Of a stretch of DNA of 36,732 nucleotides, positions 8,604 through 36,732 are shown piece by piece. Source of the stretch: Alphaproteobacteria bacterium (GTDB taxonomy: Bacteria; Pseudomonadota; Alphaproteobacteria; Rickettsiales; VGDC01). Under the pieces are notes generated by a model. It was not told where the DNA came from. It made no database searches and was given only the letters and a program-made list of their open reading frames with translations. The position numbers were made by a program, and so were the translations under genes. The stretch spans positions 1 through 36,732 of the forward strand of contig JAKUPQ010000017.1 in the NCBI GenBank assembly GCA_022450665.1. Direction: 5' to 3'. Positions within the stretch are counted from its first letter, which is position 1. Every line of letters begins with the position of its first letter.

Positions 8604-8624
8604 TTATAGGTTTTAGGCACTAAC

Positions 8625-9182
8625 ATGGCACGTAATAACGCAGCACAGCAGTCGCAGCATGAAAACAGCGATTTGATTGACAAACTGGTTTCCATTAACC
8701 GCGTAGCTAAAGTAGTAAAAGGTGGCCGTCGCTTCGGCTTCGCTGCTTTGGTTGTTGTGGGAGATGGTAAAGGCCGGGTAGGCTATGGCTCAGGAAAAGC
8801 AAAAGAAGTAAGCGATGCTGTACGTAAAGCTACGGAATCGGCTAAAAAGAACATGGTGCGTATCTCTTTGCGCGAAAACCGCACGTTACACCATGATGTT
8901 GCTGGCCGCTTTGGCGCAGGTAATGTGTTGATGCGTGCAGCGCCTCCAGGTACTGGTGTGATCGCAGGTGGTCCTATGCGCGCTATTTTTGAAGCCTTAG
9001 GCGTGCAAGATGTGGTAGCGAAATCTAACGGTACCAGTAACCCGTATAATATGGTTAAGGCAACATTTGAAGCCCTGCAAACCATGCGTTCCCCTAAAGC
9101 AGTAGCGGGTAAACGTGGTTTGAAGATCGGTGAGATTGTTAGCCGTCGTGAATCAACCGGCAAAACTGCCGCAAACGATTAA
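8625..9182 (+). CDS. rpsE: 30S ribosomal protein S5
   Basis: S5 sits at the mRNA entry channel and affects decoding fidelity. The 185-residue product has the double-stranded RNA-binding-like domain with [19 protein letters not shown] at about residues 45-63, then the C-terminal domain with [20 protein letters not shown]. It lies 21 bases after rplR and 10 before rpmD in the standard order. Confidence 0.98.
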
Positions 9183-9192
9183 GGGGTAAGTC

Positions 9193-9396
9193 ATGGCTGC
9201 AGCTAAAAAACAAGCCGCTGGTAAAATTAAAGTAACGCAAACAGGTAGCCCCATCGGTCGCCCTGCGAAGCAGCGCGCTACACTTAGAGGCCTTGGCCTC
9301 AACAAATTGCGTCGTTCTAGTGAGCTGGAAGATACTCCAGCTGTGCGCGGAATGATAAAAACCGTTCACCATTTGGTGCAAGTAGAAGAAGCATAA
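9193..9396 (+). CDS. rpmD: 50S ribosomal protein L30
   Basis: L30 is a small 50S protein. The 67-residue product has the family core [19 protein letters not shown] followed by [10 protein letters not shown] and [16 protein letters not shown]. The AAGGGGTAAG upstream is a good ribosome binding site. The N-terminus carries a short Ala/Lys-rich extension. It lies between rpsE and rplO as in other proteobacteria. Confidence 0.97.
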
Positions 9397-9437
9397 TTTC
9401 TTTTGCCAGAGAATATAGTTAATTAAAGGTTTTAGCC

Positions 9438-9911
9438 ATGAAGCTGAATGAAATTAAAGATAATGAAGGCGCACGCAAAGGCCGTATGCGCATTGGACGC
9501 GGTATTGGTAGCGGCAAAGGTAAAACCGGTGGCCGTGGTGTAAAGGGACAAAAATCCCGTACCGGCGTCAGCATTAATGGATTTGAAGGCGGTCAAATGC
9601 CTTTGTTCCGTCGCTTACCTAAGCGCGGCTTCAAAAGCATTAATCGTAAAGCCTACGAAGTCATCAATCTTTCTGATCTTCAACGTCTCGTTGATGAGAA
9701 AAAAGTGGATGCCTCCAAGCCTTTGAATAGTGAAATTCTGCAACAGGCAGGTCTGGTGCATAACAATAAATTTGGCGTTAAACTGCTGGCTAAAGGCGAA
9801 CTTAAAGCGAAAGTTACTGTAGAGGTGGCTAAAGCCTCTGCTGCTGCGCAAGAAGCCGTAAAAAAAGCTGGTGGTAAAGTAGTTCTTCCAGAAGCAAAGA
9901 AAGCCGCATAA
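9438..9911 (+). CDS. rplO: 50S ribosomal protein L15
   Basis: L15 is a late-assembly protein with a long glycine-rich N-terminal tail. That tail is obvious here ([20 protein letters not shown] at about residues 22-42), followed by [17 protein letters not shown]. The 157-residue length is normal, and the C-terminus is Ala/Lys-rich. It precedes secY by 61 bases. Confidence 0.97.
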
Positions 9912-9972
9912 GGTTTTTTAAGCTTCTGGCTACTCTTCTCCCTCCCGCCGCAACCTCCTAGCAGGTGGAAAC

Positions 9973-11319
9973 ATGACATCTTCCGCAGAGCGTCTCGCCG
10001 CTAACATGAATCTTGGTGCCTTTGGTAAAGCAGATGAGCTTAAGAAGCGTCTGTGGTTTGTTATTGGTGCATTAATTGTGTACCGTATTGGTACTTATAT
10101 TCCTCTGCCTGGCATCGATCCTAATATGCTTGCCGAAATTTTCCGTCAACAAGGCGGTGGAATTTTGGGAGTGTTTAATATGTTCTCGGGTGGTGCGTTG
10201 GGGCGGATGTCAATCTTTGCGCTAGCTGTCGTACCCTATATTTCCGCATCCATTATCATGCAGCTCATGACGGTAGTTTCTCCCCAAATGGCTGCAATGA
10301 AAAAAGAAGGGGAGGCCGGCAAGCAGAAAATTAATCAATATACTCGTTATGGAACGGTTGTGCTTGCAGCTCTGCAGGGTTGGGGCATTGGAGTTGGTTT
10401 AGAGAACATGACAGCCGGTGGAGATTCCGCTGTATTAATGCCAGGATTCTTATTCCGCTTCACAACAGCACTGACACTCGTTGGTGGCACAATGTTCTTA
10501 ATGTGGCTGGGTGAACAAATTACCTCACGCGGTATAGGAAATGGAATTTCGCTTATTATTTTCGCAGGGATCGTTGCAGAATTTCCCGGAGCATTATATC
10601 AAATGCTTGCCGGCGCGCGCAGCGGTTCTGGTATGTCCATTGAGCTGGTATTGATCGTCATTGCGATTGCCGTAGGATTAGTTCTATTCATCGTATTTAT
10701 GGAGCGCGCACAGCGCCGTTTGGTGGTGCAATATCCAAAACGCCAAGTGGGGAATAAGCTTTATCAAGGTGAGAAATCTCATTTGCCGCTAAAACTCAAT
10801 ATGGCAGGTGTTATTCCACCTATATTTGCCAGCTCTATTCTGATGTTTCCCCTTACTATTGCCAGCTTCAACTCCGGCGAAAGCTCCGGCTGGTTGCAAT
10901 GGATTACATCATATATTTCTCATGGGCAGCCTTTATATGTGGCGCTGTATATTGCCATTATTATATTCTTTAGCTTCTTTTATACTGCGGTGGTATTCCC
11001 CCCGAAAGATGCCGCAGATAATTTGAAAAAGAATGGCGGATTTATTGCAGGGATACGTCCAGGGAAAAATACAGAAAATTATATTGATTATGTACTTACG
11101 CGCCTTACCACGGTTGGAGCTTTATATATTGCCTTTGTATGCGCCGTACCAGAATTACTGATTTCGAATTATAATGTGCCTTTTTATCTTGGTGGCACCA
11201 GCCTGCTAATTGTGGTGAATGTTACCATGGACTTTGTGAGTCAAGTACAGTCGCACTTGTTTGCACATCAATATGAAGGTCTGTTGAAAAAATCAAAACT
11301 ACGTGGCAGACGCGCATGA
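9973..11319 (+). CDS. secY: Protein translocase subunit SecY
   Basis: SecY is the channel of the SecYEG inner-membrane translocon. The 448-residue product has ten hydrophobic segments. Family blocks are [14 protein letters not shown] (end of TM1), [23 protein letters not shown] (plug and TM2 region), [18 protein letters not shown] (TM5) and [11 protein letters not shown] in the cytoplasmic loop before TM9. The ATG is preceded by AGGTGG. The last four bases overlap adk (ATGA), implying coupling. Confidence 0.98.
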
Positions 11320-11978
11320 ATCTTATACTTCTTGGCCCTCCAGGTGCTGGCAAAGGTACACAGGCAAAGTTTTTGCAGGATAAGCACCAATTGGCGCATT
11401 TATCGACTGGGGACATGTTGCGGGCTACGGTGGCATCCGGCTCTACTATGGGTAAAAAGTTACAAGATATTATGTCCAGCGGAAATTTAGTGCCTGACGC
11501 AATTATGGTGGATATGATCCGTGACCGCATTGCACAAGATGATTGTAAACATGGTTTTATACTCGATGGGTTTCCTCGCACTATCGCGCAAGCCGAAGCG
11601 CTTGATGATATGCTGGAACGTGAGAACCGCGCATTGAACCATGTTATCGAGCTGAAGGTGCGCGATGATGAAATGGTTGAAAGAGTATCAGGACGGTTTG
11701 CTTGCGCTGTATGTGGAGAAGGCTACCACGACAGTTTTAAGCAACCGAAAGAAAAAAATGTCTGTAATATTTGTGGAGCAGTAGAATTTACGCGCCGCAA
11801 AGACGATCAACCTGAAACGGTGAAGCGCCGGTTAGAATCGTATCACCAGCAGACAGAGCCGTTATTGCCATATTACCAAAAACGCGGCGTTTTGCGTAGC
11901 GTGGATGGCATGGCAGACATAGAAGAGGTTACAAGGCAAATAAATGCGCAACTAAGCGCTAAAGCTATTGACTTGTGA
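11316..11978 (+). CDS. adk: Adenylate kinase, zinc-type LID
   Basis: Adenylate kinase interconverts ATP + AMP and 2 ADP. The P-loop GPPGAGKGT is at residues 7-15, the AMP-binding region includes STGDMLR, and FILDGFPRT is intact. The LID holds a tetracysteine site (C130, C133, C150, C153), so this is the zinc-binding long form. Its position directly after secY is typical of proteobacteria. The start overlaps the secY stop by four bases. The 220-residue length is normal for the long form. Confidence 0.97.
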
Positions 11979-12006
11979 CCAAATGTGCGTATTATCGTCC
12001 ATCTTC

Positions 12007-12024
12007 GCCAACTGACATGTTGGC
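12007..12024 (+). other. Small hairpin in the adk-rpsM gap
   Basis: GCCAAC and GTTGGC form a perfect 6-bp inverted repeat around a 6-base loop. A T-run lies about 20 bases further on and is too distant for an intrinsic terminator. The 106-base gap may carry an alpha-cluster promoter or leader. Function unknown. Confidence 0.25.
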
Positions 12025-12084
12025 TGATGGTGCTAATTATGCAAATTTTTTAGTACTGATGAACTAGATTTTGGGAGTATGACT

Positions 12085-12453
12085 GTGGCTCGTATCGCAG
12101 GGGTAAATATACCGACAGCTAAACGCTTAGATATTGCATTGACGTATATCCATGGAATTGGACGCGCCAAGGCGAAAGAAATTTGTTTGAAAACAAATCT
12201 TCCAGTGGATAAGCGCGTGAATGAACTCACTGAAGATGAAGTGATTAAAGTGCGCGAAACCATTGACCGCGATTATACCGTAGAAGGTGAATTGCGCCGT
12301 GAAGTGGGTATGAACATTAAGCGTTTGATGGATCTGGGTTGCTATCGCGGCCTCCGTCACCGTCGTCGCTTACCTGTTCGGGGACAGCGTACCCATACAA
12401 ATGCACGTACGCGCAAGGGCAAAGCGAAGCCCATCGCTGGTAAAAAGAAATAA
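12085..12453 (+). CDS. rpsM: 30S ribosomal protein S13
   Basis: S13 is a head protein forming bridges to the 50S subunit. The product has [16 protein letters not shown] (helix-hairpin-helix) and the C-terminal [21 protein letters not shown]. An ATG at 12079 is in frame, but GGGAG (12073-12077) is only one base from it and seven from the GTG at 12085. That GTG also gives the canonical N-terminus [11 protein letters not shown] and 122 residues, so I chose it. It opens the alpha cluster. Confidence 0.95.
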
Positions 12454-12473
12454 GCTGAAAGTAGGTTAAAATT

Positions 12474-12866
12474 ATGGCTAAGCAGGAAGCGAAACGCGTT
12501 AAGCGCCGCGAACGTAAAAATATCACTTCAGGTGTGGTGCATGTGAACGCCTCGTTCAATAACACCATCATTACTATCACAGACATGCAAGGCAATGTGA
12601 TTTCCTGGTCTTCTGCCGGCTCACAAGGCTTCAAGGGCTCGCGCAAATCTACACCATACGCTGCGCAAATGACCGCAGAAGATGCAGGTCGTAAAGCTCA
12701 GGATCATGGTTTGATGAATGTTGATGTATTAGTAAAAGGCCCTGGTTCAGGACGCGAATCAGCTTTGCGTGCTTTGCAGGCTATTGGTTTTACCGTTTCG
12801 TCAATTAAAGACGTTACGCCAATTCCGCATAATGGTTGCCGTCCACCTAAACGCCGTCGCGTATAA
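12474..12866 (+). CDS. rpsK: 30S ribosomal protein S11
   Basis: S11 is a platform protein near the mRNA exit and E site. The 130-residue product has the family core [20 protein letters not shown], then [19 protein letters not shown] and the C-terminal block [18 protein letters not shown]. It follows rpsM by 20 bases. In E. coli rpsD would follow; here rpoA comes next, the alphaproteobacterial arrangement. Confidence 0.98.
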
Positions 12867-22948: not shown

Positions 22949-23419
22949 TCAATTATTTCCCTGCCAATGATTAACTAATAATTCAAGTCCATGCATGGCA
23001 GGGATATTTTTTAGTTCGGATTTCGTTAAGTGCTTATAACTAGGATCGTTGAACACACATAATCGCAACGTGCCTATCAAAAAACCTTTGCTGTGTAGTT
23101 TAGCGCTAATAGCTTTATATTCGTCATGATATTTTTTTCTCCATTCAGGCTCTTCGAGGTTGGGTGGGCAATATTGCGAATGCTGGGTGAGATCGACAGC
23201 CTTAGTAAATGGGGTGCCATAGCGCAACTCATACAGCCAACGAAGATGCAATGCGCACCACAAGTGGCGATCGTTAATAAACTTATTCTCAAATAAATAA
23301 TCGATAGTTTCACTTGTTGCCTTTACGGCACGTTTGGCGGTTAATTCCGGGGTGCCATGGTCTGTGGCTGCCCTTTGTACGGCAGGTCTGCCCCGCTTAC
23401 TACGAAAACCTTTACGCAT
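22949..23419 (-). CDS. Uncharacterised 156-residue protein
   Basis: I cannot assign a family. The N-terminus is very basic (MRKGFRSKRGRPAVQRAAT), with a KRGRP element reminiscent of AT-hook-like DNA binding. The rest contains a Trp/Tyr-rich segment (HLWCALHLRWLYELRYG) and no membrane helix. AAGGAG precedes the ATG. It is the second gene of a minus-strand pair, 20 bases after the 175-residue gene, so they are probably co-transcribed. Because packaging genes lie further along, phage-related DNA handling is conceivable but unproven. Confidence 0.65.
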   Translation of the reverse strand: MRKGFRSKRGRPAVQRAATDHGTPELTAKRAVKATSETIDYLFENKFINDRHLWCALHLRWLYELRYGTPFTKAVDLTQHSQYCPPNLEEPEWRKKYHDEYKAISAKLHSKGFLIGTLRLCVFNDPSYKHLTKSELKNIPAMHGLELLVNHWQGNN

Positions 23420-23439: not shown

Positions 23440-23967
23440 TTATAAACAGCGTGAAGCGCTTTGCGTGGCCTTAGGGTGAATTAGGATTTGAGAGTAATCT
23501 GATTTGGAAAGCAGAGGAAGGGGGGTAAAATTAGTGTGTGGTCGTGAAGGTTGGTTTTTTGGAGTGGTCGGTATGTAATACTTGCGTTCAAGTTTTGAAG
23601 GTAGGGCTTTTGATGCTGCACGTTTTTCTGCCATCCCCTGCCGCCAAACACATCCGCGTTCTATAGCAGCCATCGCCTTGTGACGTATGACTTGGGGATC
23701 ACGACCGGCGTTTTGGCATACGGTAATGAAATCTTCGCTATTGCCTAATAGCCAGCGAATTGCCTTTGCCTTCTCATGCTGGGCTTCTGGCTTGCGAGAC
23801 TCGCTTCCTGCGTCCATCAGGGCTTGGGTTATAACGGCTGTCCATAATGCAGTTTCACCCTTAACCGGGTTGAAAGCGTCTTGATCAAATGCATCGCATT
23901 CCCGTTTTGAAACAGAAAACTTGGATAAATCCTGATTTTGCTTTGTGTTTATGCTTTTGCCTGTCAT
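23440..23967 (-). CDS. Uncharacterised 175-residue protein
   Basis: No confident family. The central part, about residues 38-100, has the ordered pattern ETALWTAVITQALMDA, then AIRWLLGNSEDFITVCQNAGRDPQVIRHKA. I associate this layout with small alphaproteobacterial accessory or phage-linked proteins, from memory only. The last 60 residues are Pro/Ser-rich and probably unstructured. GAGGG precedes the ATG. It leads the pair with the 156-residue gene. Confidence 0.65.
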   Translation of the reverse strand: MTGKSINTKQNQDLSKFSVSKRECDAFDQDAFNPVKGETALWTAVITQALMDAGSESRKPEAQHEKAKAIRWLLGNSEDFITVCQNAGRDPQVIRHKAMAAIERGCVWRQGMAEKRAASKALPSKLERKYYIPTTPKNQPSRPHTNFTPLPLLSKSDYSQILIHPKATQSASRCL

Positions 23968-25579: not shown

Positions 25580-26338
25580 TTAGAAACCCAACAAGAAAAA
25601 GAGTGGGCATAGGCGTTGACTGTCAGCGAAGTTATAATCGGCAGTGGCAGGGTTATCGGTTGTGGTGCAAGCGGTTGCGTAGGTATCGGATGCCTTAGGT
25701 GCTTTGATGATACCAGTGCCGGGTAGGCTGTCATCGAGCTTTTTGTCAATTGCGCCTGCTTCATCAGGGGTGAACATGGGATTCCGTGTGCCACCTTTTG
25801 CCCAGTTTAAAAGACCACCTACCTGTATGACATGCCCATAGTATCCAACAAAATAATAGATACTGCTGGTAATGTCGCCACATGAGCGTATAGTATACCC
25901 GCCTCCAGCAATGGGTGTTCGCGGCACATTAACACCAGGGTTGGGAACGTCGCCACCGGAAACTTCATATTCGCCGTCGATTAATTCTGCTTTTCCCAAA
26001 TGCTGGAATGCCGCCCATTGTTCATCAAAATCCGATGCACAACTTGTGTCATAGCTATTACCAATTACTCCATCGCCATCGCCATCATATGCATCGGCCC
26101 AGAAGCTAGTGGCTGTGCTGAAATCTCCGGGTAGTGCCATGTAGCGTTCTGAGAAGTTGTTTATTGCTGAGCGATACTCACTGACTTTTGAAATTGTAGC
26201 TTGTACCTCGCTGGAGCGAATCAGGCTTTTGCCCGTGAGAATTCCACCTGCAAGTAGGGCAATAATGGTGAGAACGATGGCCATTTCTACTAGTGAGAAG
26301 CCATTTTGTAAATTGCGGATGCAGGTTCTTGTTTGCAT
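25580..26338 (-). CDS. Prepilin/pseudopilin-like protein A
   Basis: Predicted substrate of a prepilin peptidase and part of a type IV pilus or type II secretion-like fibre. After the leader MQTRTCIRNLQNG comes FSLVEMAIVLTIIALLAGGIL with Glu at +5. The body has ALPGDF, a Ca-site-like YDGDGDGVIGN loop, FQHLGKAELIDGEY, IDKKLDDSLPGTG and a C-terminal cysteine pair 19 residues apart. The frame opens at 26377, but ATG 26338 removes the overlap with the upstream prepilin and starts the leader at a usual length (252 residues). Confidence 0.85.
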   Translation of the reverse strand: MQTRTCIRNLQNGFSLVEMAIVLTIIALLAGGILTGKSLIRSSEVQATISKVSEYRSAINNFSERYMALPGDFSTATSFWADAYDGDGDGVIGNSYDTSCASDFDEQWAAFQHLGKAELIDGEYEVSGGDVPNPGVNVPRTPIAGGGYTIRSCGDITSSIYYFVGYYGHVIQVGGLLNWAKGGTRNPMFTPDEAGAIDKKLDDSLPGTGIIKAPKASDTYATACTTTDNPATADYNFADSQRLCPLFFLLGF

Positions 26339-26346
26339 AAAGCGGC

Positions 26347-27216
26347 CTAATTCATTTGGGTAAAGATTAATGCACATTGACTACCTGAAGCAGTTAGATT
26401 GTATAGTGCAGTATCGGCACTACTTGTGGTGGCACAAGCATTTTTGAGATAGCCAGTGCCGCTATATGGCTCAAAACTTTGAATATAACCAAATGCGGGT
26501 TTGCCGTCATCGAATTTATTGTCGAGGCTGTAGGCATCTTCGGTGTTAAATAACGGAGTGCCGACATTGGCACCTGTGGCGCCTTGGTTTGAACTGCGAA
26601 ATAACACAATGGATAATCCTTTGTCGCCCGGATAGGTTAATAGCCCTGCAAGCGTACTGACTTTAAAATAGTCTTCTGTTGTGCCGAGAGTGGCAGGATA
26701 TAACGCGCCATTTTTATATGTTGAATCTCCGCAATGATTGCTGCTTAGGCAGGTGGCATTTTCGGCTGTACCCGCTCTTTGTCCGGTATAGCGACCAGAA
26801 AACATTTCGGCATTAGATAAATGTTGCCAGAAGCGGTGGGCTTCATAATAGGTAGTGCCATCACCCGCTGTTGTAATTCTTCCGTTACCATCGCCATTAC
26901 AGGTTTCTTTTCCAACGGAAGCGGTGGTTTTGCAGGTATCGAAATCTGCATCTGCCGCACCCCAATGCTTTGTGGCATTATATAAATCACAGGGCAGTCC
27001 GCCGAAGCGCCTATTAAAATTGTGGATTGTATCACGAAGGCTGTTTGTTTCTGCTGTGACTGACTTTAGATCGGCAGCATGTTTAAGGTTCATCCCTGCA
27101 AGTATGCCGCCAACAATGAGTGATATGATTACTAACACCACAGAAAGCTCCACGAGGGAAAAGCCTGAATATGCATTGTCTGTGCAGGATTTTTGCGGGT
27201 GTGAAATATTTAACAT
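26347..27216 (-). CDS. Prepilin/pseudopilin-like protein B
   Basis: Paralogue of the neighbouring prepilins, 289 residues. The leader ends ...NAYSG, followed by FSLVELSVVLVIISLIVGGIL with Glu at +5. The body shows GLPCDLYNATKHWG, the loop CNGDGNGRI, FWQHLSNAEMFSGRYTG, LDNKFDDGKPAFG and a final cysteine pair separated by 19 residues. It is the first gene of a minus-strand pair; its stop is 8 bases before gene A. A palindrome lies about 43-56 bases upstream of the start. Confidence 0.87.
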   Translation of the reverse strand: MLNISHPQKSCTDNAYSGFSLVELSVVLVIISLIVGGILAGMNLKHAADLKSVTAETNSLRDTIHNFNRRFGGLPCDLYNATKHWGAADADFDTCKTTASVGKETCNGDGNGRITTAGDGTTYYEAHRFWQHLSNAEMFSGRYTGQRAGTAENATCLSSNHCGDSTYKNGALYPATLGTTEDYFKVSTLAGLLTYPGDKGLSIVLFRSSNQGATGANVGTPLFNTEDAYSLDNKFDDGKPAFGYIQSFEPYSGTGYLKNACATTSSADTALYNLTASGSQCALIFTQMN

Positions 27217-27258
27217 GCATTTCTCTGTTAATGTGATGACATATAAAGTGATTATACG

Positions 27259-27272
27259 GTTAAGGACTTAAC
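27259..27272. promoter_or_regulatory. 14-bp palindrome, candidate operator
   Basis: GTTAAG-GA-CTTAAC is a perfect 6-bp inverted repeat with a 2-base centre. It sits in the 84-base divergent gap between prepilin B and the 27301 gene, where promoters for both must lie. The symmetry suits a dimeric repressor; which regulator would bind is unknown. Confidence 0.4.
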
Positions 27273-27300
27273 ATTCTATTAATGAAAGGGATTTTATAGC

Positions 27301-27705
27301 ATGGCGTGTGAATCTAAGGGGGCATTTGCCGCATGGCAAAAAACAACGCAGCAGCAACTAAAAGAATTGGCACAATTACGTCGAATTTTATCAACAGAGA
27401 GTCTGCGGCTAAAAAACATCTTAAATAAAAACTGTGCAGCGTCAGGTTTATTGGAAAAAGGGGCGCGGGAGCAGGCGGTGGCAGAGGTGATCAGGATTGC
27501 ACAGGCGTATTTGAAACTGATATCGCAGGAACAAAGCTTATATGGAGAAATATTAAAGCAATTGGAGCATGCAAACAGCAAAAAAGCTGACTCACAATTA
27601 TTAAGTGAGACAGAATGGCAAATGCTAGAAACTGCTATAGACAAGCGGAGAAAAGAGGAGCGCAGTCTAACAAATGCGGCGCAACAGGATGAAGGCGACA
27701 ACTAA
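27301..27705 (+). CDS. Uncharacterised 134-residue coiled-coil protein
   Basis: The product is largely alpha-helical with heptad-like Leu spacing (QQQLKELAQLRRILSTESLRL, and again around residues 70-90), with no signal peptide. AAGGG upstream supports the ATG. It is the plus-strand gene before the terminase large subunit, 309 bases away, which is the usual place of a terminase small subunit. A small-subunit role is only a positional guess because no helix-turn-helix is evident. A chaperone-like helical protein is an alternative. Confidence 0.65.
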   Translation: MACESKGAFAAWQKTTQQQLKELAQLRRILSTESLRLKNILNKNCAASGLLEKGAREQAVAEVIRIAQAYLKLISQEQSLYGEILKQLEHANSKKADSQLLSETEWQMLETAIDKRRKEERSLTNAAQQDEGDN

Positions 27706-27707
27706 AA

Positions 27708-27920
27708 TTAAAGTGCGCAGCTGCTTAAGCTTTGAGCATTAATTATTGTAAGAAGATAGGTAAGAATTACCAGATACGAGAAGGTAAGCGAGCGCTTAGT
27801 GCGGATGTCATCGCCATACAAGAAATTGCCAATGGCAAGGCCACCTTTTTTCATAAGCGCGGTAGCGTCTTTAATGGGGGCGGTCAGAGTTTGAGTACGG
27901 TTGGAATCTGCGTATGACAT
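27708..27920 (-). CDS. Possible 70-residue small protein with C-terminal hydrophobic segment
   Basis: The frame opens at 27956, but GGGAG about 10 bases before ATG 27920 makes that the better start (MSYADSNRTQTLTAPIKDA). The C-terminal third (SLTFSYLVILTYLLTIINA) is one likely membrane helix. It lies antisense between two plus-strand phage-type genes, with its stop 3 bases from the stop of the 27301 gene. No family is recognised; it may be a moron-type gene or spurious. Confidence 0.45.
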   Translation of the reverse strand: MSYADSNRTQTLTAPIKDATALMKKGGLAIGNFLYGDDIRTKRSLTFSYLVILTYLLTIINAQSLSSCAL

Positions 27921-28014
27921 CGATTTATTCTCCCATAATAACTTTTCTTTAGTCAAGTATAGCAGAATGAAAAGCGTTTGTGTGCAAATTTTTTATTGAG
28001 GGGCGTAATAACGC

Positions 28015-29436
28015 ATGAATGAGGAAGATCAGCTAAAAGATATTGCTGTGCGGTTGCGAAACAGCAATTTGAGAAAAAACTATGGACAGTTTTTGGAGGC
28101 GTGTTTTGCAACACTTAATCCGGCAACAGTGTATTGCCCGAACTGGCATATTGAATTGATTGGTGAATATTTGGAGGCGTGCAGGCAAGGAGAAATTACC
28201 CGGCTGATTATTAACATGCCGCCACGGGCTTTAAAATCGATTTGTGTGAGCGTTGCGTGGCCAGCGTTTTTGTTAGGTCAGAACCCTAGTGAGCGCATAA
28301 TGACGGCAAGTTATTCTTCTGGGTTGAGTGTTAAACATGCATTGGATTGCCGGCGCGTGATGCAATCTCAGTGGTATGGTGATGTGTTTCCAGACACAAT
28401 GCTGGCGCGGGATCAGAATGAAAAGCATAAATTTGCAACTACCGCTTTTGGCCATCGTATCGCAACTTCGGTGGGGGGGACGGCCACGGGTGAGGGGGGT
28501 AACTTTTTGATTATGGACGATCCGCAAAATCCATTGCAGGTAATGAGTGATGTGCAACGTACGCAAGCAAGCCAATGGTTTGATCATACTTTTGCAACGC
28601 GGTTGGATGATAAACGTAAAGGTGTGATTATTGTCGTTATGCAACGCTTGCATGAAGCAGATTTGAGCGGACATTTATTGAAAAAAGGTGGGTGGGAGCA
28701 TTTGGTGTTGCCAGCGGTGGCTGAGCGCACGAGAATTTATGACTTTGGGCAGGTGCATAAAACGCAAAAGCGTGGTGAGTTGCTACATGTTGCGCGTGAA
28801 GACAAGCGTCAGATAGAGATGATTCGAAGAGAACTGGGAAGCTTTGCATTTGCAGCGCAATACCAACAAAACCCGCTGCCACTTGATACGGGGATGGTAA
28901 AACGTCATTGGTTTTTGCGTTATGATGCTCCGCCTGAAACGTGGGATCGTGTGGTGCAGAGCTGGGATACCGCAATAAAAACCGGTGTAGCTAATGATTG
29001 CAGTGTGTGCATTACGTTTGCTGAAAAAGAAGGCAGGCACTATGTGCTGGATGTGGGGGTGATGCGTGAAGAATACCCACAGCTCAAGCGTATGGTATTA
29101 AGATATGCCAAACAATGGAATGCGGATGCCGTGTTGATTGAAGACAAAGCCAGCGGTCAAAGCCTGCTACAGGATTTAAGGAAAGATAAAGCGGCGCCGC
29201 CATTGATTGCAACACTACCCAAGCAAGATAAAGTAACGCGTTTTGCGGCGGTGTCGGCTATGATTGAAGCCGGGCAAGTGGTATTGCCACAAAATGCGGT
29301 GTGGCTGGCAGAACTGGAACATGAGCTGTTGGCGTTTCCCCAAGGCAGGCATGACGACCAAGTGGATGCGCTTTCGCAATATCTGGCATGGATTCGGGAG
29401 GCGAAAAAGTCTCAGCACCGTATACGTGGATTATGA
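28015..29436 (+). CDS. terL: Phage terminase large subunit
   Basis: ATP-driven packaging motor and nuclease that fills phage or gene-transfer-agent heads with DNA. The ATPase part has the degenerate Walker A NMPPRALKS (residues 67-75) and Walker B FLIMDD (164-169). The RNase H-like nuclease part has SWDTA (D318), LIEDKASG (E376) and GRHDDQVDALS (D447, D448, D451). All catalytic acids appear intact over 473 residues, so it is unlikely to be a decayed remnant. GAGGGG precedes the ATG. Its stop is 14 bases from the stop of a convergent prepilin gene, an unusual neighbour. Confidence 0.93.
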   Translation: MNEEDQLKDIAVRLRNSNLRKNYGQFLEACFATLNPATVYCPNWHIELIGEYLEACRQGEITRLIINMPPRALKSICVSVAWPAFLLGQNPSERIMTASYSSGLSVKHALDCRRVMQSQWYGDVFPDTMLARDQNEKHKFATTAFGHRIATSVGGTATGEGGNFLIMDDPQNPLQVMSDVQRTQASQWFDHTFATRLDDKRKGVIIVVMQRLHEADLSGHLLKKGGWEHLVLPAVAERTRIYDFGQVHKTQKRGELLHVAREDKRQIEMIRRELGSFAFAAQYQQNPLPLDTGMVKRHWFLRYDAPPETWDRVVQSWDTAIKTGVANDCSVCITFAEKEGRHYVLDVGVMREEYPQLKRMVLRYAKQWNADAVLIEDKASGQSLLQDLRKDKAAPPLIATLPKQDKVTRFAAVSAMIEAGQVVLPQNAVWLAELEHELLAFPQGRHDDQVDALSQYLAWIREAKKSQHRIRGL

Positions 29437-29450
29437 ATAATAAATAGGTG

Positions 29451-30146
29451 CTAGGGTAGCCATTTGAGTATGGCGCATTCTTTGTTGTCGTTGGTTAAAT
29501 AAGTCATTGGCGTTACACTGGTGTCCATGCATTTGCTGGCATCGCCTAATGCTGGCAAGCCGTATATATCGCCTTTACTGGCAAAGCCATCGTCTATTTT
29601 TCTATCTAATTCGAATGCTTCGCCCGGAGTGAGAAAGCCATCGTTCATAATGGCAGAAGGGACGGGCGTGGCAGCAATTAGCTGTGTGCCAGTGCGGTTT
29701 GCTTGTGTGCCATATGACACGCGCAAACCTACACCACTAATACTGGATTCAGGAACGTTAACCCCTATTTCATGCCCACTGCCATATGATCCTGTGTAGG
29801 TACCTAAAACGAGTTTTGCTTTGCTTAAATGCTCCCACACGCTTTCTTGCTCTTCGTTGCTGACATTACGGATTTGCATGTCACCATTGCCGTTAGATAC
29901 GGAGCTGCTCCACAGGTCTACGGCTTCATTGAAGTCACCAGGAGGCTTGCCATATTTTGATTTAAACAGTTGCATATTGGTTTGTGTGGTGTGCAGATCT
30001 TCGGCAAATTCCTTAAGCTCGGTGCTTCTTATCATATCGGAGCCAACCAATATGCCACCTACAAGCAATCCAGTTATAACTAAAACAATAGAAAGCTCTA
30101 CGAGGGAGAAGCCTTGGCGAAATTTAGAATGTGATGAGCATGGCAT
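29451..30146 (-). CDS. Prepilin/pseudopilin-like protein C
   Basis: Shortest of the six paralogues (231 residues). The leader MPCSSHSKFRQG is followed by FSLVELSIVLVITGLLVGGIL with Glu at +5. The body contains PPGDFNEAVDLW, a degenerate SNGNGDMQI loop, VWEHLSKAKLVLGTYTG, NVPESSISGVG, LDRKIDDGFASKG and two C-terminal cysteines 17 residues apart. It is the last gene of a four-gene minus-strand block and converges with terL. The ribosome binding site is weak, so it may depend on coupling to the upstream prepilin (24-base gap). Confidence 0.86.
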   Translation of the reverse strand: MPCSSHSKFRQGFSLVELSIVLVITGLLVGGILVGSDMIRSTELKEFAEDLHTTQTNMQLFKSKYGKPPGDFNEAVDLWSSSVSNGNGDMQIRNVSNEEQESVWEHLSKAKLVLGTYTGSYGSGHEIGVNVPESSISGVGLRVSYGTQANRTGTQLIAATPVPSAIMNDGFLTPGEAFELDRKIDDGFASKGDIYGLPALGDASKCMDTSVTPMTYLTNDNKECAILKWLP

Positions 30147-30170
30147 AAAAGGTTATCCGTGAAGTGATAA

Positions 30171-30983
30171 TCAAAAGTTATTGCGGAAAATTAAAGGACA
30201 GACATCGCTTGTTGTATTTGTCCTTATATAATTTGCGTCAAAATCTGTAACGGAACTTCCATCATGGCAATTACTTGCAGCCCATTTACTAACGATATTG
30301 CCGCGTGCGGGTAGTCCATCGTCATATTTTTTATCTAATCCCCATGCTTCATCGGCAGTAAGGAAGGCGGTGTTTGGAGTAGAGGTTGCTGAAGCTTTGC
30401 CAACAAATAATGCGTGCCCATAGCTTCCATCAAAATATTGAGCACTACTTTCAACCGCTCCTATATAAAACATCCCCCATCCTACCCCGCTGATTTGGCT
30501 TGAGGGGGCATTGGAGCCTGGCACGCCATGCCACGCGCCACCAGGACCTTGAACTCCGGTGTATGTTCCTTCGATAAGACTTGCATTGGCTAAATGTTGC
30601 CACGCACGATGGCGCTCGTGGGTTACGGTGCCATCGGTAAGGTTAGATATAGTGGTGGCACCGTCGCCATTGCAGGTTGTTGGGGTGGTGCTGGGCGTAG
30701 TTAACGCAGCACACGCAGTATAGTCACTATTTTCGGGGCCCCAAATTTCCGTGGCATTAGCTATATCGCCGGGCAATGCATTATAGCGGTCTTGGAAAGT
30801 AAGAACTGCACGTACCAAATCTTCTTTTTGTTTGGCGATGGATTGAACCTCCGCATTATGGATTAAATTACGACCCAGTAGAACGCCGCCTATCAGCAAG
30901 CCGACAACCACTAGCACGATGGATAGTTCAAGCAGGGTAAATCCGCTGGAATAGCTGCTGTGGTTACGTGAATATGGACGCAT
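30171..30983 (-). CDS. Prepilin/pseudopilin-like protein D
   Basis: A 270-residue paralogue. The leader MRPYSRNHSSYSSG precedes FTLLELSIVLVVVGLLIGGVL with Glu at +5. It shows ALPGDIANATEIWG, CNGDGATTI, AWQHLANASLIEGTYTG, SNAPSSQISGVGWG, LDKKYDDGLPARG and a C-terminal cysteine pair 22 residues apart. AGGA precedes the ATG and the gap to the upstream paralogue is 15 bases, consistent with one transcript. Its exact place (major or minor pilin) cannot be told. Confidence 0.87.
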   Translation of the reverse strand: MRPYSRNHSSYSSGFTLLELSIVLVVVGLLIGGVLLGRNLIHNAEVQSIAKQKEDLVRAVLTFQDRYNALPGDIANATEIWGPENSDYTACAALTTPSTTPTTCNGDGATTISNLTDGTVTHERHRAWQHLANASLIEGTYTGVQGPGGAWHGVPGSNAPSSQISGVGWGMFYIGAVESSAQYFDGSYGHALFVGKASATSTPNTAFLTADEAWGLDKKYDDGLPARGNIVSKWAASNCHDGSSVTDFDANYIRTNTTSDVCPLIFRNNF

Positions 30984-30998
30984 AATAATTCCTGTATT

Positions 30999-31892
30999 TT
31001 AAAATTGATCGACCAATACGATACCGCAGGTTTTGATGTCGTTTTGAACATTATAAGCAGTATCTTCAGAGCAATCGACAGAGCATGACAAGCCAATCAC
31101 CTGCATTTTCCCATTGGTGGGCAAGCCATCATCAATTTTTGCATCAAGCGTTTTGGTTTCTTGTGGGGTGAGTAGACCTTCGACGCCGTCACTCATACCA
31201 ATATTAAAATCTTCGGTGGCAGTATAGCCAGCGAATACCAACACATTGCCGCGCAGATTTTTACCTGTGCTGTCGTTGCATGAGTTGTATAGCCCCCATG
31301 TAGTGCCAATATTCCAGCCAGAAGCGCTGCTATAATCGGATTTTGGAGCATTGATGCCGAATATAGCGGTGGATCCGGCAGGGCGTAGCGGGGCAGATTC
31401 GTAGGCGGTTACAGCTGCGGAGCTATGTGCAACGCCAGTGTAGAAACCATTTATTAATTCGGCATTATTTAAATGCTGCCATGCACGGAACATTTCGTAT
31501 AGCTGGCCGGTAGTCGTGGTGTATGTGCCAGCGCCAATGCCACCAACAGAGCCATCGCCGTTGCCGTTGCATGTTGCGGTGCTGCTTTGAGTGGCGGCTA
31601 TGGTAATGCAGGTGGAAAGAGTAGCATTAAGCTGTCCCCAAATATTTTCAGCATTCGGAAAATCTCCAGCATTATATTTATAGCGATCTTTGAAAGTGCG
31701 AAGCGCCTGAGAAAGAGTTTCGCTTTCATTGGCAACAGCGCGGATTTTTGCGGAGCGAATCATATCCGCACCCACAAGCGCACCACCAATAGCAATGGCA
31801 ATAATTACCAATACAATGGCCATTTCTGCCAGTGTAAAACCCTGCGTGGTGGAGGGGGCGTTATAGGGGGGGGTAGAGGTTTTGCTTACCAT
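30999..31892 (-). CDS. Prepilin/pseudopilin-like protein E
   Basis: A 297-residue paralogue with leader MVSKTSTPPYNAPSTTQG and helix FTLAEMAIVLVIIAIAIGGAL (Glu at +5). The body has YNAGDFPNAENIWG, CNGNGDGSVGG, RAWQHLNNAELINGFYTG, LDAKIDDGLPTNG and three cysteines near the C-terminus. GAGGA precedes the ATG. A run of eight C residues on the coding strand (31866-31873) lies within codons 7-9. A slip there would shift the frame before the cleavage site, so expression could be phase-variable. Confidence 0.87.
   Translation of the reverse strand: MVSKTSTPPYNAPSTTQGFTLAEMAIVLVIIAIAIGGALVGADMIRSAKIRAVANESETLSQALRTFKDRYKYNAGDFPNAENIWGQLNATLSTCITIAATQSSTATCNGNGDGSVGGIGAGTYTTTTGQLYEMFRAWQHLNNAELINGFYTGVAHSSAAVTAYESAPLRPAGSTAIFGINAPKSDYSSASGWNIGTTWGLYNSCNDSTGKNLRGNVLVFAGYTATEDFNIGMSDGVEGLLTPQETKTLDAKIDDGLPTNGKMQVIGLSCSVDCSEDTAYNVQNDIKTCGIVLVDQF
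31866..31873 (-). repeat. Poly-C tract of 8 in the 5' end of prepilin E
   Basis: Eight consecutive G on the plus strand, C on the coding strand, inside ACC CCC CCC. Homopolymers of this type near the start of surface-structure genes are classical slippage sites, but eight is at the short end. Confidence 0.5.
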
Positions 31893-31899
31893 ATCATCC

Positions 31900-32784
31900 T
31901 CAAAAATCCGCTTTGATATAAATCTGACACACGCGATCTTTGCCGTTGGTATTGTATATTGCGTCTACATCGTTTTCGTCGGTTGCAGCACCTAAAGTGG
32001 TGAGGCTACAGCCAGCAAAAGGGTTGCCTACGCCTGTAGCATGGGGCACGACTATAGCGCCTGTAGCTGGATTTCCATCATCAAGCTTATTATCTAATTC
32101 CCATATTTCGGCTGGGGTAAAAAGCGGCGTGAAATTATTTAATGTATTCGATCCGCCCCATATGGAAAACAGATGGGTATCGTAATTGCCTTCGAATAAA
32201 TAAAACGGATCGCGCTGGGCATCTGTGCTATCGCGGAAAAAGACACGCCAGCAGCCATCGCGAAATGCGGATTTTGGACAATTGATGCCTGTTTGATGTC
32301 CTTCACCAGCGCTGGCAGTGGAGCCAACTCCGGTGTAATTGCCATCAATCATATTGGCGTTAGAAAGCTGTTGCCATGCGCGATATTCTTCGTAGCCAAC
32401 GGCGATTGCGCCATCGCCATCGCCGTTACATGTGCGTGTACCTTGGCTGGGACTGCTGCTGGTGAGTGCGGCACATGCTGCATCGCTTACGGCAGGAGAA
32501 CTGGCATTGGGCGCCATTCCCCAAATTGCGGTGGCGTCTGTAGTGTCGCCAGGCAAGTCATCATATTTTGTATTAAATGTGGATATGGCCATCTGAAACT
32601 GCTGGAATTCAGAAAAAACCTTGCGAAATTCAGTGCTGCGTAACATGGCGACGCCGCTCACAATCCCACCGGTGAGTAGTGCGAGGATGACCAAAACAAT
32701 AGATAGCTCAACCAATGTTACGCCCGATTGCTTGTAGCGCTTGCAATGGCTTGGCGAAGTTGATGGTGAAGAATGCGTTGTCAT
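31900..32784 (-). CDS. Prepilin/pseudopilin-like protein F
   Basis: First gene of the four-gene block, 294 residues. The leader is longer (about 21 residues ending YKQSG), followed by VTLVELSIVLVILALLTGGIV with Glu at +5. The body shows DLPGDTTDATAIWG, CNGDGDGAI, YRAWQQLSNANMIDGNYTG, LDNKLDDGNPATG and C-terminal cysteines 26 residues apart. AGGG precedes the ATG. The next gene follows after 7 bases. A 24-bp imperfect palindrome sits 72 bases upstream of the start. Confidence 0.87.
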   Translation of the reverse strand: MTTHSSPSTSPSHCKRYKQSGVTLVELSIVLVILALLTGGIVSGVAMLRSTEFRKVFSEFQQFQMAISTFNTKYDDLPGDTTDATAIWGMAPNASSPAVSDAACAALTSSSPSQGTRTCNGDGDGAIAVGYEEYRAWQQLSNANMIDGNYTGVGSTASAGEGHQTGINCPKSAFRDGCWRVFFRDSTDAQRDPFYLFEGNYDTHLFSIWGGSNTLNNFTPLFTPAEIWELDNKLDDGNPATGAIVVPHATGVGNPFAGCSLTTLGAATDENDVDAIYNTNGKDRVCQIYIKADF

Positions 32785-32855
32785 ATACCCTGCACAGTTT
32801 TGTGAATGTTACTGTTTGGATTGTAGGGGGTAAAGCTTAAAAATTTGTTAAATCT

Positions 32856-32971: not shown

Positions 32972-33865
32972 TTAGCCCGCAAAATCCGGAAGGCCGATAT
33001 TGCCGGGGCTGGGTAAGGAAACCAATAGCTGCACTGCCGTTCTGCCGTCCAGTTCTTGTGGGCGAGGGGGAGTGTAGCTGCCACGGGTGTCACTGGTGGT
33101 AGCGGTGGGATAACGGGTTTCGCCGGGCAAGATGATGCCGCCCGAAACGGAAATGCCGTTCATCATTTCGCGCATGACAAAACCGGAAGCGGGGAGAAAA
33201 ACGGGTAGTCCCAATTTACTGCCGGAGCCAATGCTGATTTCACCCGTGCAAGAGCCTTTGACACTGATTTTGGTGATGCGGGAAAAGGATTTATTGCCAT
33301 CGATACGGCCAGACTCTGCGGTGGGGCCTTGGATGTCTTCAATCATCGGGCGATCATATAAATCCACACCTTCGATGCGGAAAATGCAACTGCTATTATC
33401 TTGTGTTGAGTGGATGACAATATTGCGCGCCGTATATGGTTGTTCACCAGAGATTTTGATTTCACCGGGGGAATTCACCTGTGTTGAACGTACATAAAGA
33501 TTGGCGTTTTCTACGCGTGGCCCGCCCAAATTGACGAGATACATTGACGATTGCACCATATTGGTGATGGTAGTACCGCGATTTTGATCGAAGTAAAAAT
33601 CGCCGCCTGGTTCTTCTAGTTGAAGATTTAACAACGATCCTTTACGTAAATCTTTGGCACCATGCCAATGTAACGCAAGGTGGTCTTTACGCATGGTGAC
33701 GATAAAATCTTTGGGGCAAAGATAAAATTGCCCGTCGATACCCATGTTATGGTTAATAGCAGAGAAGAAGCTGCCTTCGTTTTTTCCGCGTGGATAGGGG
33801 ATATTGATGGTGTCGCCGCGTGGAACATCACGATCTAACATCATATTAACCGGTACATAAGGCAT
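32972..33865 (-). CDS. Uncharacterised 297-residue protein, possibly virion-related
   Basis: No family is assigned with certainty. It has no signal peptide or membrane helix and looks beta-rich. About residues 140-230 hold ARNIVIHSTQDNSSCIFRIEGVDLYDRPMIE, then a DIQGPT segment and ISVKGSCTGEISIGSGSKLGLP. This resembles the xxGxDxxGxxxxExIxGP pattern found in many phage head or tail structural proteins. That, plus terL and portal genes nearby, suggests a virion role, but the gene is on the opposite strand to both. AAGG precedes the ATG. Confidence 0.55.
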   Translation of the reverse strand: MPYVPVNMMLDRDVPRGDTINIPYPRGKNEGSFFSAINHNMGIDGQFYLCPKDFIVTMRKDHLALHWHGAKDLRKGSLLNLQLEEPGGDFYFDQNRGTTITNMVQSSMYLVNLGGPRVENANLYVRSTQVNSPGEIKISGEQPYTARNIVIHSTQDNSSCIFRIEGVDLYDRPMIEDIQGPTAESGRIDGNKSFSRITKISVKGSCTGEISIGSGSKLGLPVFLPASGFVMREMMNGISVSGGIILPGETRYPTATTSDTRGSYTPPRPQELDGRTAVQLLVSLPSPGNIGLPDFAG

Positions 33866-34032
33866 ATTTTAAACCTTGTAAGCATGAGAGAATTACTAAG
33901 CGGAGCGTAATGATATTTGGTTTATATGACAATAAGAAACCTTGTATTTGAAGAAAAAAATATACAATCGTGTTAAAACTGTCATAATATTTGGGTGGTT
34001 TTTTAGTGACCAATTTTTTTCAGGAATTTGCA

Positions 34033-34941
34033 ATGCGTAGGAAAAAATATTCCAGCCTGTGCTTATTAATGAGTTCTGTAACCATTGTTGTTGGTGCAGA
34101 TGCTGTGAATGCTGCTGTGCAAGTAGCGGAAAAGCCAATAATACTAGCGATGGGTGAAAAACAAGTGGCTCCACAGCCTCCTGAAAAAGCATCCGTGCCT
34201 GTTACCACAGAGGCTCAACCAAATCCTGATGTAAAAGACTCCGACTCTGAAAGTGCAGCAGAAGAAGCGCCTAAATATGACATTCATTACGACATGGACA
34301 TTGATGTTACGCCGGAAATGATGGAAAAATATTTAAAAGCCCAAAAAACCCACGATGAAGAAGATGATCATATGCTGGGTGACCATTTGCATGGAGAAGA
34401 ATTGCGCAATGCGGTGCCGCCTACTGAAATGTTGAAAATACGCGCAGCGGCAGAAAGTGGTGACGCTTATGCCCAAGGTGAATTAGGTGAGTTTTACCAT
34501 ATGGGAATGGGGGTTGAGCGCGATTTGCGTAAAGCATTTTTCTGGTTTCGTGAGGGTGCTGAAAATGGCGACACGAATTCGATGCGATATTTAGGCAAGT
34601 ATTACATGGGAGAATTTCCTGAGCTTAAAATCGATAAAAATCTGGATGAAGCGCAAAAGTGGCTTGTGAAGTTGGTGCGTATCGAAGATCCGATGGGTAT
34701 GGCAATGTATGGTAGATTGTTGTATCAACGTGCTCGCGAAGGTGAGAAGCATTATGAACCCGAAGCGGCATATTGGTATGATAGAGGCATGGGTGGAAAC
34801 TGGGATCCGGATTATGAGCCGCCAAGTCTTAAAGTTGATGCATCTGCTGTAGGCGATGAAGTTATGAAGACAGGTGAAGTTGACGATGATGTGACAGAGA
34901 CCGAGAATGAGCCGCTAGAACAAGCGCCGAAAAATAAATAA
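34033..34941 (+). CDS. Secreted Sel1-repeat protein 1
   Basis: Predicted exported protein: ATG 34033, with AGGA at 34022-34025, gives a signal peptide MRRKKYSSLCLLMSSVTIVVGADAVNA (the TTG at 33991 would place 14 residues before it). Residues about 45-130 are acidic and low-complexity. Sel1/TPR-like repeats occupy about 136-250, the clearest being GDAYAQGELGEFYHMGMGVERDLRKAFFWF in part. Sel1 repeats act as protein-binding scaffolds. The 302-residue product is paralogous to the next gene, sharing an HLHxEE element before the repeats. Confidence 0.8.
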   Translation: MRRKKYSSLCLLMSSVTIVVGADAVNAAVQVAEKPIILAMGEKQVAPQPPEKASVPVTTEAQPNPDVKDSDSESAAEEAPKYDIHYDMDIDVTPEMMEKYLKAQKTHDEEDDHMLGDHLHGEELRNAVPPTEMLKIRAAAESGDAYAQGELGEFYHMGMGVERDLRKAFFWFREGAENGDTNSMRYLGKYYMGEFPELKIDKNLDEAQKWLVKLVRIEDPMGMAMYGRLLYQRAREGEKHYEPEAAYWYDRGMGGNWDPDYEPPSLKVDASAVGDEVMKTGEVDDDVTETENEPLEQAPKNK

Positions 34942-35016
34942 TACAAGAGTGGTAATGGAAATTAAACACGGTGCTGTATATATTAGATAATGTAACGTGA
35001 TAAGGTGGAGGATACC

Positions 35017-36075
35017 ATGCGTGCTAAGAATGTGAAATATTGGCTATATTTGGGAGTTGCATGTGTTGCATTGAGCCCTGTAACAGCAACAGCAGAAATG
35101 CCGGAAGTTACGCATAAGCCTTTGAATGAAGAAGTGCTTATGGGGGATATGCCGCAAGACTATAAATATACAGGAAATGAGAATGTCGGTGGAGAATTGC
35201 TGAAGCGCCAGCGTGTAGAAAGCCGCGTTAAGGCATATAAAGAGCAGCTTCACACAGACGATGCCGAACATTTGCATGAAGAAAATATGGTGTCACCTGA
35301 GCAATTTAAAGATCTGGTAGCTCGCGCACAAAAAGGTGATGCAATTGCTATTGGAGCTGTAGCATATTCATATCAAAACGGCCTTGGCGGTAACGATAAA
35401 AATGAGAAAAAAGCGATTGAATGGTATAAAAGCGCTATAGAGCATGGAAAAACAGAGCATTTTTCTACGATTGGCAAAATGTATCTTGAGAACAGAAACG
35501 AGGATGTCAAGCCTGGGTTTTTTGATCAGCTGCGTAATAAAATTGCTGGCGAAGATGAAACCACAGTAGAAGATGATGACGAAAAAGCTCGCAAGTGGTT
35601 TGAGCAAGGCGTGTACGCCAAAGATTTTGATTCTTATATGCAGCTTGGCATGATGTATCGTGATGGAGCAGGTGGCTTGCCTAAAGATATGGAAAAAGCT
35701 AAATGGTATTATGACGAAGGTCTGCGGTATAAAAAAGTTTACGATGAGAGAATGATGGCCCAGGCTATAAATGCTGCACGCAAACAGGCAGAAGCTGAAG
35801 AGAGCATTGTGCAATCTAAAGCGCCACCTCGCCCGGCTGATCCTAATGTAAAGGAATTTCCAGGAGTGGTATTGGGTGAATCCTATTGTACGCTACGTGA
35901 AATGGGGTCGCCCACCACGCATTACAAGCAATTTTATGAAGCCTATTGCGGTGGGATCGAGGAGGATAGAACTGAAACTGTCCCTGCCAAAGCACGCGTG
36001 AAAGGTATGGATTGTGAGATAACAAAATGGCCGGAAAATAAAGCCGGCAAAGATTTTGAGTTACGTTGTAAGTAA
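35017..36075 (+). CDS. Secreted Sel1-repeat protein 2
   Basis: A 352-residue exported protein. GGAGG at 35007-35011 fits ATG 35017; an in-frame GTG at 35005 is rejected. The signal peptide probably ends at TATA before EMPEV (about residue 26). Sel1-like repeats run from about 100 to 235 (GDAIAIGAVAYSYQNGLGG; DSYMQLGMMYRDGAGGLPKD). A short helical linker follows. The separate C-terminal segment (about 280-352) contains four cysteines (C291, C311, C333, C351), likely two disulfides in the periplasm. It is followed by a strong terminator. Confidence 0.82.
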   Translation: MRAKNVKYWLYLGVACVALSPVTATAEMPEVTHKPLNEEVLMGDMPQDYKYTGNENVGGELLKRQRVESRVKAYKEQLHTDDAEHLHEENMVSPEQFKDLVARAQKGDAIAIGAVAYSYQNGLGGNDKNEKKAIEWYKSAIEHGKTEHFSTIGKMYLENRNEDVKPGFFDQLRNKIAGEDETTVEDDDEKARKWFEQGVYAKDFDSYMQLGMMYRDGAGGLPKDMEKAKWYYDEGLRYKKVYDERMMAQAINAARKQAEAEESIVQSKAPPRPADPNVKEFPGVVLGESYCTLREMGSPTTHYKQFYEAYCGGIEEDRTETVPAKARVKGMDCEITKWPENKAGKDFELRCK

Positions 36076-36302: not shown

Positions 36303-36732
36303 ATGAAAGCACCTGCTTCTCGTGTGGGATATGCTCATGCTTCCAACCCCGGTTTGTGGGCGCGGTTACGCAATGGGCTGACACGTAAAGATTCAACAAT
36401 TGACCAACAACACAAACATAGTGCAATGGATGTTCGCCGCGCATTGGGAGCGCATAGCTTTATTCATGCTCCGGGTAAGCCCGTGTGGATGGGGCGTGAT
36501 TATGAGCGTTTTGCGGATGAAGGATTTATTAAAAATGTAATAGCACATCGTGCGGTAAGCATAGTAGCAAGTGGCGCAGCACATGTGCCATGGCTGTTAT
36601 ATGATGTGCGCAGTGGAAAATCGCAACCAGTAAAAGCACATCCGGTGTTGAAGTTACTGAATCGCCCTAACCCATTTCAGGGAGGGGCAGAGCTATTTGA
36701 AAGTATTTACGCTTCGCGATTAATTGCCGGAA
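36303..36732 (+). CDS. HK97-type phage portal protein, N-terminal part (3' truncated)
   Basis: Portal proteins form the dodecameric ring through which terminase pumps DNA into the head. The first 143 codons are in the window. After a variable N-terminus, the segment FIKNVIAHRAVSIVASGAAHVPWLLYD and then HPVLKLLNRPNPFQGGAELFESIYASRLIAG match the N-terminal part of HK97-family portals. AAGGA lies before the ATG. The frame is open to the window edge. It is about 6.9 kb from terL; in most phages and gene transfer agents the two are adjacent. Confidence 0.85.
   Translation, partial: MKAPASRVGYAHASNPGLWARLRNGLTRKDSTIDQQHKHSAMDVRRALGAHSFIHAPGKPVWMGRDYERFADEGFIKNVIAHRAVSIVASGAAHVPWLLYDVRSGKSQPVKAHPVLKLLNRPNPFQGGAELFESIYASRLIAG

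Follow-up and report, generated by a model that had tools for sequence, protein, structure and literature searches.

We analyzed a window of 36,732 bases, the whole of contig C17 (JAKUPQ010000017.1) of a 2.48-Mb Rickettsiales genome assembled in 154 contigs (GCA_022450665.1), in which six prepilin genes (P1-P6) on the minus strand lie in two groups on either side of DNA-packaging genes on the plus strand. The arrangement is real and is best explained as the head cluster of a gene transfer agent (GTA) into which genes of a dispersed prepilin family have been inserted. In the reading that we prefer, to which we assign a probability of roughly 0.78, a vertically inherited head cluster of the type found in RcGTA, the type I alphaproteobacterial GTA of Rhodobacter capsulatus (genes g1-g15), was interrupted by two operons of host prepilins and by two Sel1-repeat genes; the two sets of genes would be neighbours by insertion, with no common function shown. 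Accidental neighbourhood fits the evidence better than a joint machine does. The order-level comparison covered 36 genomes, with contigs of relatives designated by L-numbers and genomes by G-numbers; G001, from a different genus and 89% complete in a fragmented assembly, was the sole available relative of the same family. Genome-wide statistics are based on search counts and about 290 kb of contigs.

The six prepilins

A sequence-only reading of this DNA had described six minus-strand prepilins in two groups flanking plus-strand packaging genes, and all six open reading frames (ORFs) were recovered at the positions it gave. The prepilins and packaging genes are as follows.

25580-26377, minus strand: prepilin P1, second gene of the P2-P1 operon (N_methyl 8.9e-07; orthologue in G001)
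26347-27216, minus strand: prepilin P2, first gene of the P2-P1 operon (N_methyl 1.2e-05; orthologue in G001)
27301-27705, plus strand: putative GTA-type small terminase TerS, RcGTA gp1-like, 134 aa (orthologue in G001; position, size and C-terminal motif)
27708-27956, minus strand: small hydrophobic ORF between terS and terL, 82 aa (similar ORF in G001, by eye)
28015-29436, plus strand: large terminase TerL, RcGTA gp2-type (Terminase_6C 2.6e-18; phrog_38 terminase large subunit 1.2e-109)
29451-30146, minus strand: prepilin P3 (N_methyl 1.8e-05)
30171-30983, minus strand: prepilin P4 (N_methyl 3.9e-05)
30999-31892, minus strand: prepilin P5 (N_methyl 5.6e-05)
31900-32784, minus strand: prepilin P6, first gene of the P6-P3 operon (N_methyl 4.9e-06)
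36303-36731, plus strand: N-terminal part of the portal protein, truncated where the contig ends (Phage_portal 7.1e-12)

Only terL, its putative small partner and the small hydrophobic ORF stand between the two prepilin groups. P1 and P2 overlap by 31 bp and the gaps within P3-P6 are 7-24 bp, so that the genes have the appearance of two operons. Promoter and terminator scans yielded sites no more numerous than in shuffled sequence. The prepilin leader (N_methyl, PF07963) scored above the Pfam cut-off in all six proteins, each of which carries the leader motif G^[FV][ST]LxE and a C-terminal cysteine pair whose last Cys is invariant. The leader and the cysteine pair are thus common to the six, as had been claimed, but the other motifs said to be shared by all of them vary: LPGD is LPCD in P2, PPGD in P3 and NAGD in P5; WQHL is FQHL in P1, WEHL in P3 and WQQL in P6; P1 lacks YTG; and LDxKxDDGxPxxG is altered in P1 and P3. 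Pairwise identity among P1-P6 is 29-38% along the full length, indicating that their likeness exceeds the leader alone.

The combination of a leader with a cleavage motif and a hydrophobic N-terminal helix is that of type IV pilins and minor pilins (N_methyl PF07963; TIGR02532), which P1-P6 also resemble in their G^FSLVE leader, the length of the predicted helix, the C-terminal cysteine pair and the operon layout. An AlphaFold model obtained from the six window proteins contained a 51-residue N-terminal helix (residues 17-67), with low confidence elsewhere (mean pLDDT, the predicted local distance difference test, 59); a Foldseek search of this model against the PDB gave no match with an E value below 2. 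Because of the low-confidence model and the lack of a Foldseek match, no pilin class is assignable to P1-P6. A sequence search of the PDB with the prepilins matched only the leader, and in Pfam and NCBIfam nothing outside the leader was matched, the head domain (WQHL, YTG, LDxKxDDG) included. Unlike known type IV pilins, P1-P6 have a head domain that matches no Pfam family, NCBIfam family or solved structure.

The prepilin family is expanded and dispersed across the order. At E values below 1e-10 there are 20 matches in this genome and 0-45 in the relatives; counting all N_methyl proteins, this genome has 25. The other copies here, single or in arrays, lie among genes that look cellular, such as those for flagella, hslUV and his genes, glmM and a signal peptidase gene (named by eye). 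In a tree of the prepilins P1-P6 do not form one group, most deep nodes being weakly supported, and a recent local tandem duplication as the source of the six was rejected on the ground that P3-P6 do not group. Machinery for pilus assembly is encoded in the genome: PF00437 matches include a PilB-like ORF and two neighbouring PilT/PilU-like ATPases on contig C2, and there is a cpa/tad-like cluster. The prepilins most likely serve host type IV pili: prepilin peptidase would cleave after the G of G^FSLVE, and the PilB-type machinery would build P1-P6 in as minor or alternative pilins.

Two further sets of prepilin-like genes were observed. L143 (G000:C31) encodes at 6706-12719 three proteins with a prepilin leader, of 261, 657 and 1084 aa, the latter two of a size unusual for pilins; a CtrA-like box accompanies the array at -57. 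A second, distinct family of prepilin-like proteins (PCPA..., SYGADGHGAW-type) adjoins terS-terL in G006 (L070:10987-11781) and lies about 6 kb from terL in G017 (L076:248-2984).

The packaging genes form an RcGTA-like set

The proposal that the packaging genes are GTA-like was borne out. terL is present in single copy and was matched in 28 of the 36 genomes, mostly at 40-60% identity. An orthologue of the putative TerS occupies the corresponding position in G001 (phmmer 3.5e-10). Other relatives have ORFs upstream of terL that are like it in size, position and C-terminal motif; it had no Pfam or PHROG match above threshold. Its size, position and C-terminal motif fit the features described for GTA small terminases, which are without a DNA-binding domain and adjoin terL (PMC6854486). 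A small minus-strand ORF like that between terS and terL also occurs in G001 (L071 3537-3755), the likeness being judged by eye.

The rest of the packaging gene set was located with a chimeric query made from head and tail genes of relatives. Contig C91 opens inside a portal gene, of which it holds the remainder (L087 1-717), followed by the S78 prohead protease, the HK97-type capsid protein, a gp6-like connector (adaptor), head completion, tail terminator and tail tube genes. From the split portal we infer that C17 and C91 are neighbours, about 40 portal residues being missing at the join. Contig C23 encodes DUF2460, Gp84_N/BR0599 and GTA_TIM with Phage-tail_3 and Rcc01698_C above the cut-off, and an NlpC/P60 match just below the Pfam cut-off. 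Together these genes make up the RcGTA gene set. The head genes from portal to tail tube follow the RcGTA order with one contig gap inside the portal gene.

The likeness to RcGTA thus covers the terS-like gene, terL and the other head genes from portal to tail tube as well as DUF2460, the hub protein, the NlpC/P60-like protein and GTA_TIM/Rcc01698_C. Unlike in RcGTA, the head and tail-tip modules are on different contigs here, and terL is separated from portal by prepilin genes, c16 and Sel1 genes; for this reason the cluster is not the compact, uninterrupted head-tail cluster that is typical, though not required, of a GTA. What these genes constitute is an RcGTA-like gene set rather than a demonstrated working GTA. 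Most probably the products of the terminase, portal and capsid genes form a GTA-like particle, which would pack host DNA. The head cluster has apparently been inherited vertically across the order.

In a survey of 70 Rickettsiales genomes RcGTA homologues were tabulated, but no GTA head-tail cluster was found (Kogay et al. 2019, PMC6821227). Compared with the small or scattered RcGTA-like sets of Rickettsiales and other orders, the set described here is nearly full and has accessory genes inserted; it resembles the scattered sets in that terL without a neighbouring portal is common in this order. Its interest lies in its near completeness, given that RcGTA-type genes of this order often occur singly and at scattered places.

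Two more RcGTA-type tail-tip modules were found in this genome inside prophage-like segments, L089 (C32) and L090 (C39), and the host's phages therefore seem to share GTA-type tails; a 609-aa ORF of C32 resembles a phage terminase by eye. In some relatives terL is itself in two pieces. In L056 (9968-12246) and L055 (3-3591) an ATPase part, which stops close to residue 303 of the query (GGMIKLEWFGRF in L056), is followed downstream by a separate nuclease part, and different minus-strand ORFs (239 and 431 aa) lie between the two. In G012 the two terL parts are about 7 kb apart. A large terminase split at its domain boundary, as in L055 and L056, would be unusual.

Several relatives have the packaging genes without prepilins between them

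Five further conserved or repeat-containing genes of the window bear on the comparison with relatives.

22949-23419, minus strand: c3, conserved 156-aa protein (27-35% identity matches adjoining terL in L048, L054, L058, L060, L061 and L066)
23440-23967, minus strand: c4, conserved 175-aa protein paired with c3 (43-57% identity beside terL in L048, L054, L058, L060 and L061)
32972-33865, minus strand: c16, conserved protein (80% identity in G001, 36% in L056)
33991-34941, plus strand: Sel1-repeat protein a (Sel1 7.1e-09 for 34048-34941)
35005-36075, plus strand: Sel1-repeat protein b (Sel1 8.1e-13; homologue in G001)

In several relatives the order terS-terL-portal is compact and free of prepilins. 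The portal gene directly follows terL in L050 and L093; in L048, L049, L054, L059 and L094 the portal start lies 1.8-3.8 kb past the terL start, compared to 8.3 kb in the window. Across the order, c3 ordinarily stands upstream of the terminase genes, and in L048, L058 and L061 the c3-c4 pair is immediately upstream of them with no prepilins between. In the window the two prepilin operons separate genes that are adjacent in relatives, P2-P1 (with a 310-aa gene) standing between c4 and terS, and P6-P3 between terL and c16; the two Sel1-repeat genes are placed likewise. Outside the family, relatives have neither prepilin block at these places, and for this reason the simplest reading is that prepilin operons were inserted into the packaging cluster, and not phage DNA into a pilin array. 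We infer that insertion between gene ends was harmless to the cluster.

G001 has an order that matches that of the window: P1, P2, terS, terL, c16 and Sel1. Orthologues of P1 and P2 are in place (48% identity, tree support 1.00), and a homologue of Sel1-repeat protein b follows terL and c16 (33% identity, 5e-35). The P3-P6 block is absent from G001, where only 23 bp lie between the terL end and the c16 end, indicating that P3-P6 were either gained in this genome or lost in G001. Of the two histories that the sequence-only reading had offered, accumulation of prepilins inside a packaging cluster is thus favored by the compact prepilin-free clusters of relatives. Entry of phage or GTA DNA into a pilin array is disfavored by those clusters and by G001, which keeps terL with P1-P2 but without P3-P6. 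Synteny, which that reading had named as the check, yielded intact terL-portal clusters from which the prepilins are missing, but did not support an intact six-gene array from which terL is missing.

Host genes thus come to lodge within clusters of this kind: prepilin and Sel1-repeat genes here, cytochrome b561 and YceI genes in relatives. This advises caution in inferring function from neighbourhood in GTA clusters. The latter pair, cytochrome b561 and YceI, lies between portal and protease in L049 (14644-15764) and L054 (13067-14195), and homologues of cytochrome b561/YceI are near terL in L065, another host gene pair lodged in a GTA-like cluster.

Prepilins and packaging genes are not associated across genomes

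We examined the relationship between terL and the prepilins across the 36 genomes. Both were present in 21 genomes, terL only in 7, prepilins only in 6 and neither in 2 (Fisher p = 1); that is, 7 of the 28 genomes with terL lack any prepilin, and 6 of the 8 without terL have prepilins. In the terL flanks of 18 other genomes 3 prepilins were seen compared to about 1.8 expected, all of them prepilins of another type. Given some ten prepilin loci in this genome, the chance of one falling in a 20-kb target is about 8%, which is not rare for a scan of many windows. The sequence-only reading had held that chance juxtaposition would be indicated by relatives with the same prepilins far from any phage gene and a complete terL-portal-capsid cluster elsewhere. 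This is largely what was found: prepilins of the P1-P6 family lie far from phage genes, here and in relatives, and the presence of terL and that of prepilins are unassociated. The functional link suggested between the prepilins and packaging accordingly failed to find support.

One weak lead to co-regulation of the prepilins with the GTA genes, resting on sequence motifs, comes from two putative CtrA-like boxes.

27268-27282, strand not assigned: TTAA-N7-TTAA, CtrA-like box, exact match (divergent P2/terS region; -66 from P2, -33 from terS)
32837-32851, strand not assigned: TTAA-N7-TTAA, CtrA-like box, exact match (-67 from the P6 start codon)

TTAA-N7-TTAA occurs within 250 bp of 3 of 13 prepilin operons compared to about 0.16 expected (background 0.048 per kb), the first box having been spotted by eye before the statistical test. 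CtrA is encoded, the best match being 73% identical to the query, a Caulobacter CtrA. In G001 the P2/terS interval has no such box, the motif is not clearly enriched upstream of terL across the order (5 seen compared to 3.2 expected), and genome-wide the full CtrA consensus shows no enrichment (35 sites compared to 52 for a reversed control). For these reasons the boxes were rejected as conserved evidence of co-regulation. Tad pili are reported to co-evolve and be co-regulated with GTAs (PMC10883770), so a link between prepilins and a GTA is not absurd, but nothing here requires it.

Alternative explanations

We consider it unlikely that the prepilins and GTA genes form a functional module in which prepilins and GTA genes share their regulation, for instance through CtrA, and the pili aid the release or capture of GTA particles or DNA. 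The exact boxes before both prepilin operons, the first of them between P2 and terS, and the presence of CtrA and of ComEC in the genome are in keeping with such a module; the missing box in G001 and the counts for the terL upstream regions and for the full consensus speak against it, as do the genomes with only terL or only prepilins, and the link in the literature concerns Tad pili, a different class. A specific form of this idea, that pilus subunits were recruited into a GTA regulon with CtrA switching on P2-P1 and terS from one divergent region and P6-P3 from the matching box, strikes us as quite improbable. If it were true, pili would be tied directly to GTA biology, and cells that make DNA-packed particles, or are ready for uptake, would also show particular pili. 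We likewise regard as unlikely the reverse history, in which an ancestral array of six prepilins upstream of c16 was split by incoming terS-terL and G001 later lost P3-P6. It would account for six genes on one strand with P1-P2 and P3-P6 flanking terS-terL, and is consistent with P3-P6 being old, diverged paralogues rather than a fresh tandem duplication. However, the portal gene follows terS-terL in several relatives and c3-c4 precede them without prepilins between, a conserved order which argues that the terminase genes are in their ancestral place, and P1-P6 are not one group in the tree.

An active prophage carrying the prepilins as cargo genes (morons) is very improbable. Its portal, capsid and tail genes would be those described above, which are present and look intact, but terL is single-copy and matched over the order, the tail-tip genes are on other contigs, and no integrase was seen by eye among the window ORFs, no integrase profile search having been run. 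The prepilin family had no relative among 50,697 phage records, and IMG/VR gave just one leader-type match, to a different prepilin; phage-carried prepilins were rejected as a source on these grounds. Neither a cargo family shared with phages nor mobile packaging genes were thus found. A mis-joined contig that artificially places prepilins beside terL might be considered, given an assembly of 154 contigs in which the window is one whole contig, but seems hardly credible: the independent G001 keeps the P1-P2-terS-terL and terL-c16-Sel1 orders, and no compositional step occurs at the junctions. Several points count against our preferred reading of insertion into an inherited GTA cluster. With a single, fragmented relative of the same family, loss of P3-P6 there is inseparable from gain here, and the terL of that relative is itself split over two contigs; P2-P1 have stood beside terS since the split of the two genera, so that the neighbourhood is not very recent; the C17-C91 join depends on the divided portal gene; and CtrA-like boxes at -66 and -67 of both prepilin operons, the first also before terS, in a genome that encodes CtrA, make co-regulation possible.

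Neighbouring conserved genes

The c3 and c4 proteins have no Pfam match; their genes precede terS-terL in a number of the order's families, and they may belong to the GTA system. c16 is the most conserved gene of the neighbourhood, at 80% identity between the two genera compared to about 60% for terL and 48% for the prepilins, and is on the strand opposite to the GTA genes. It also lies between terL and portal in L056, and is weakly similar (3e-3, 103 aa) to a protein encoded beside the major capsid gene of siphovirus MW202545. From this position and likeness, c16 is possibly head-associated and part of the particle.

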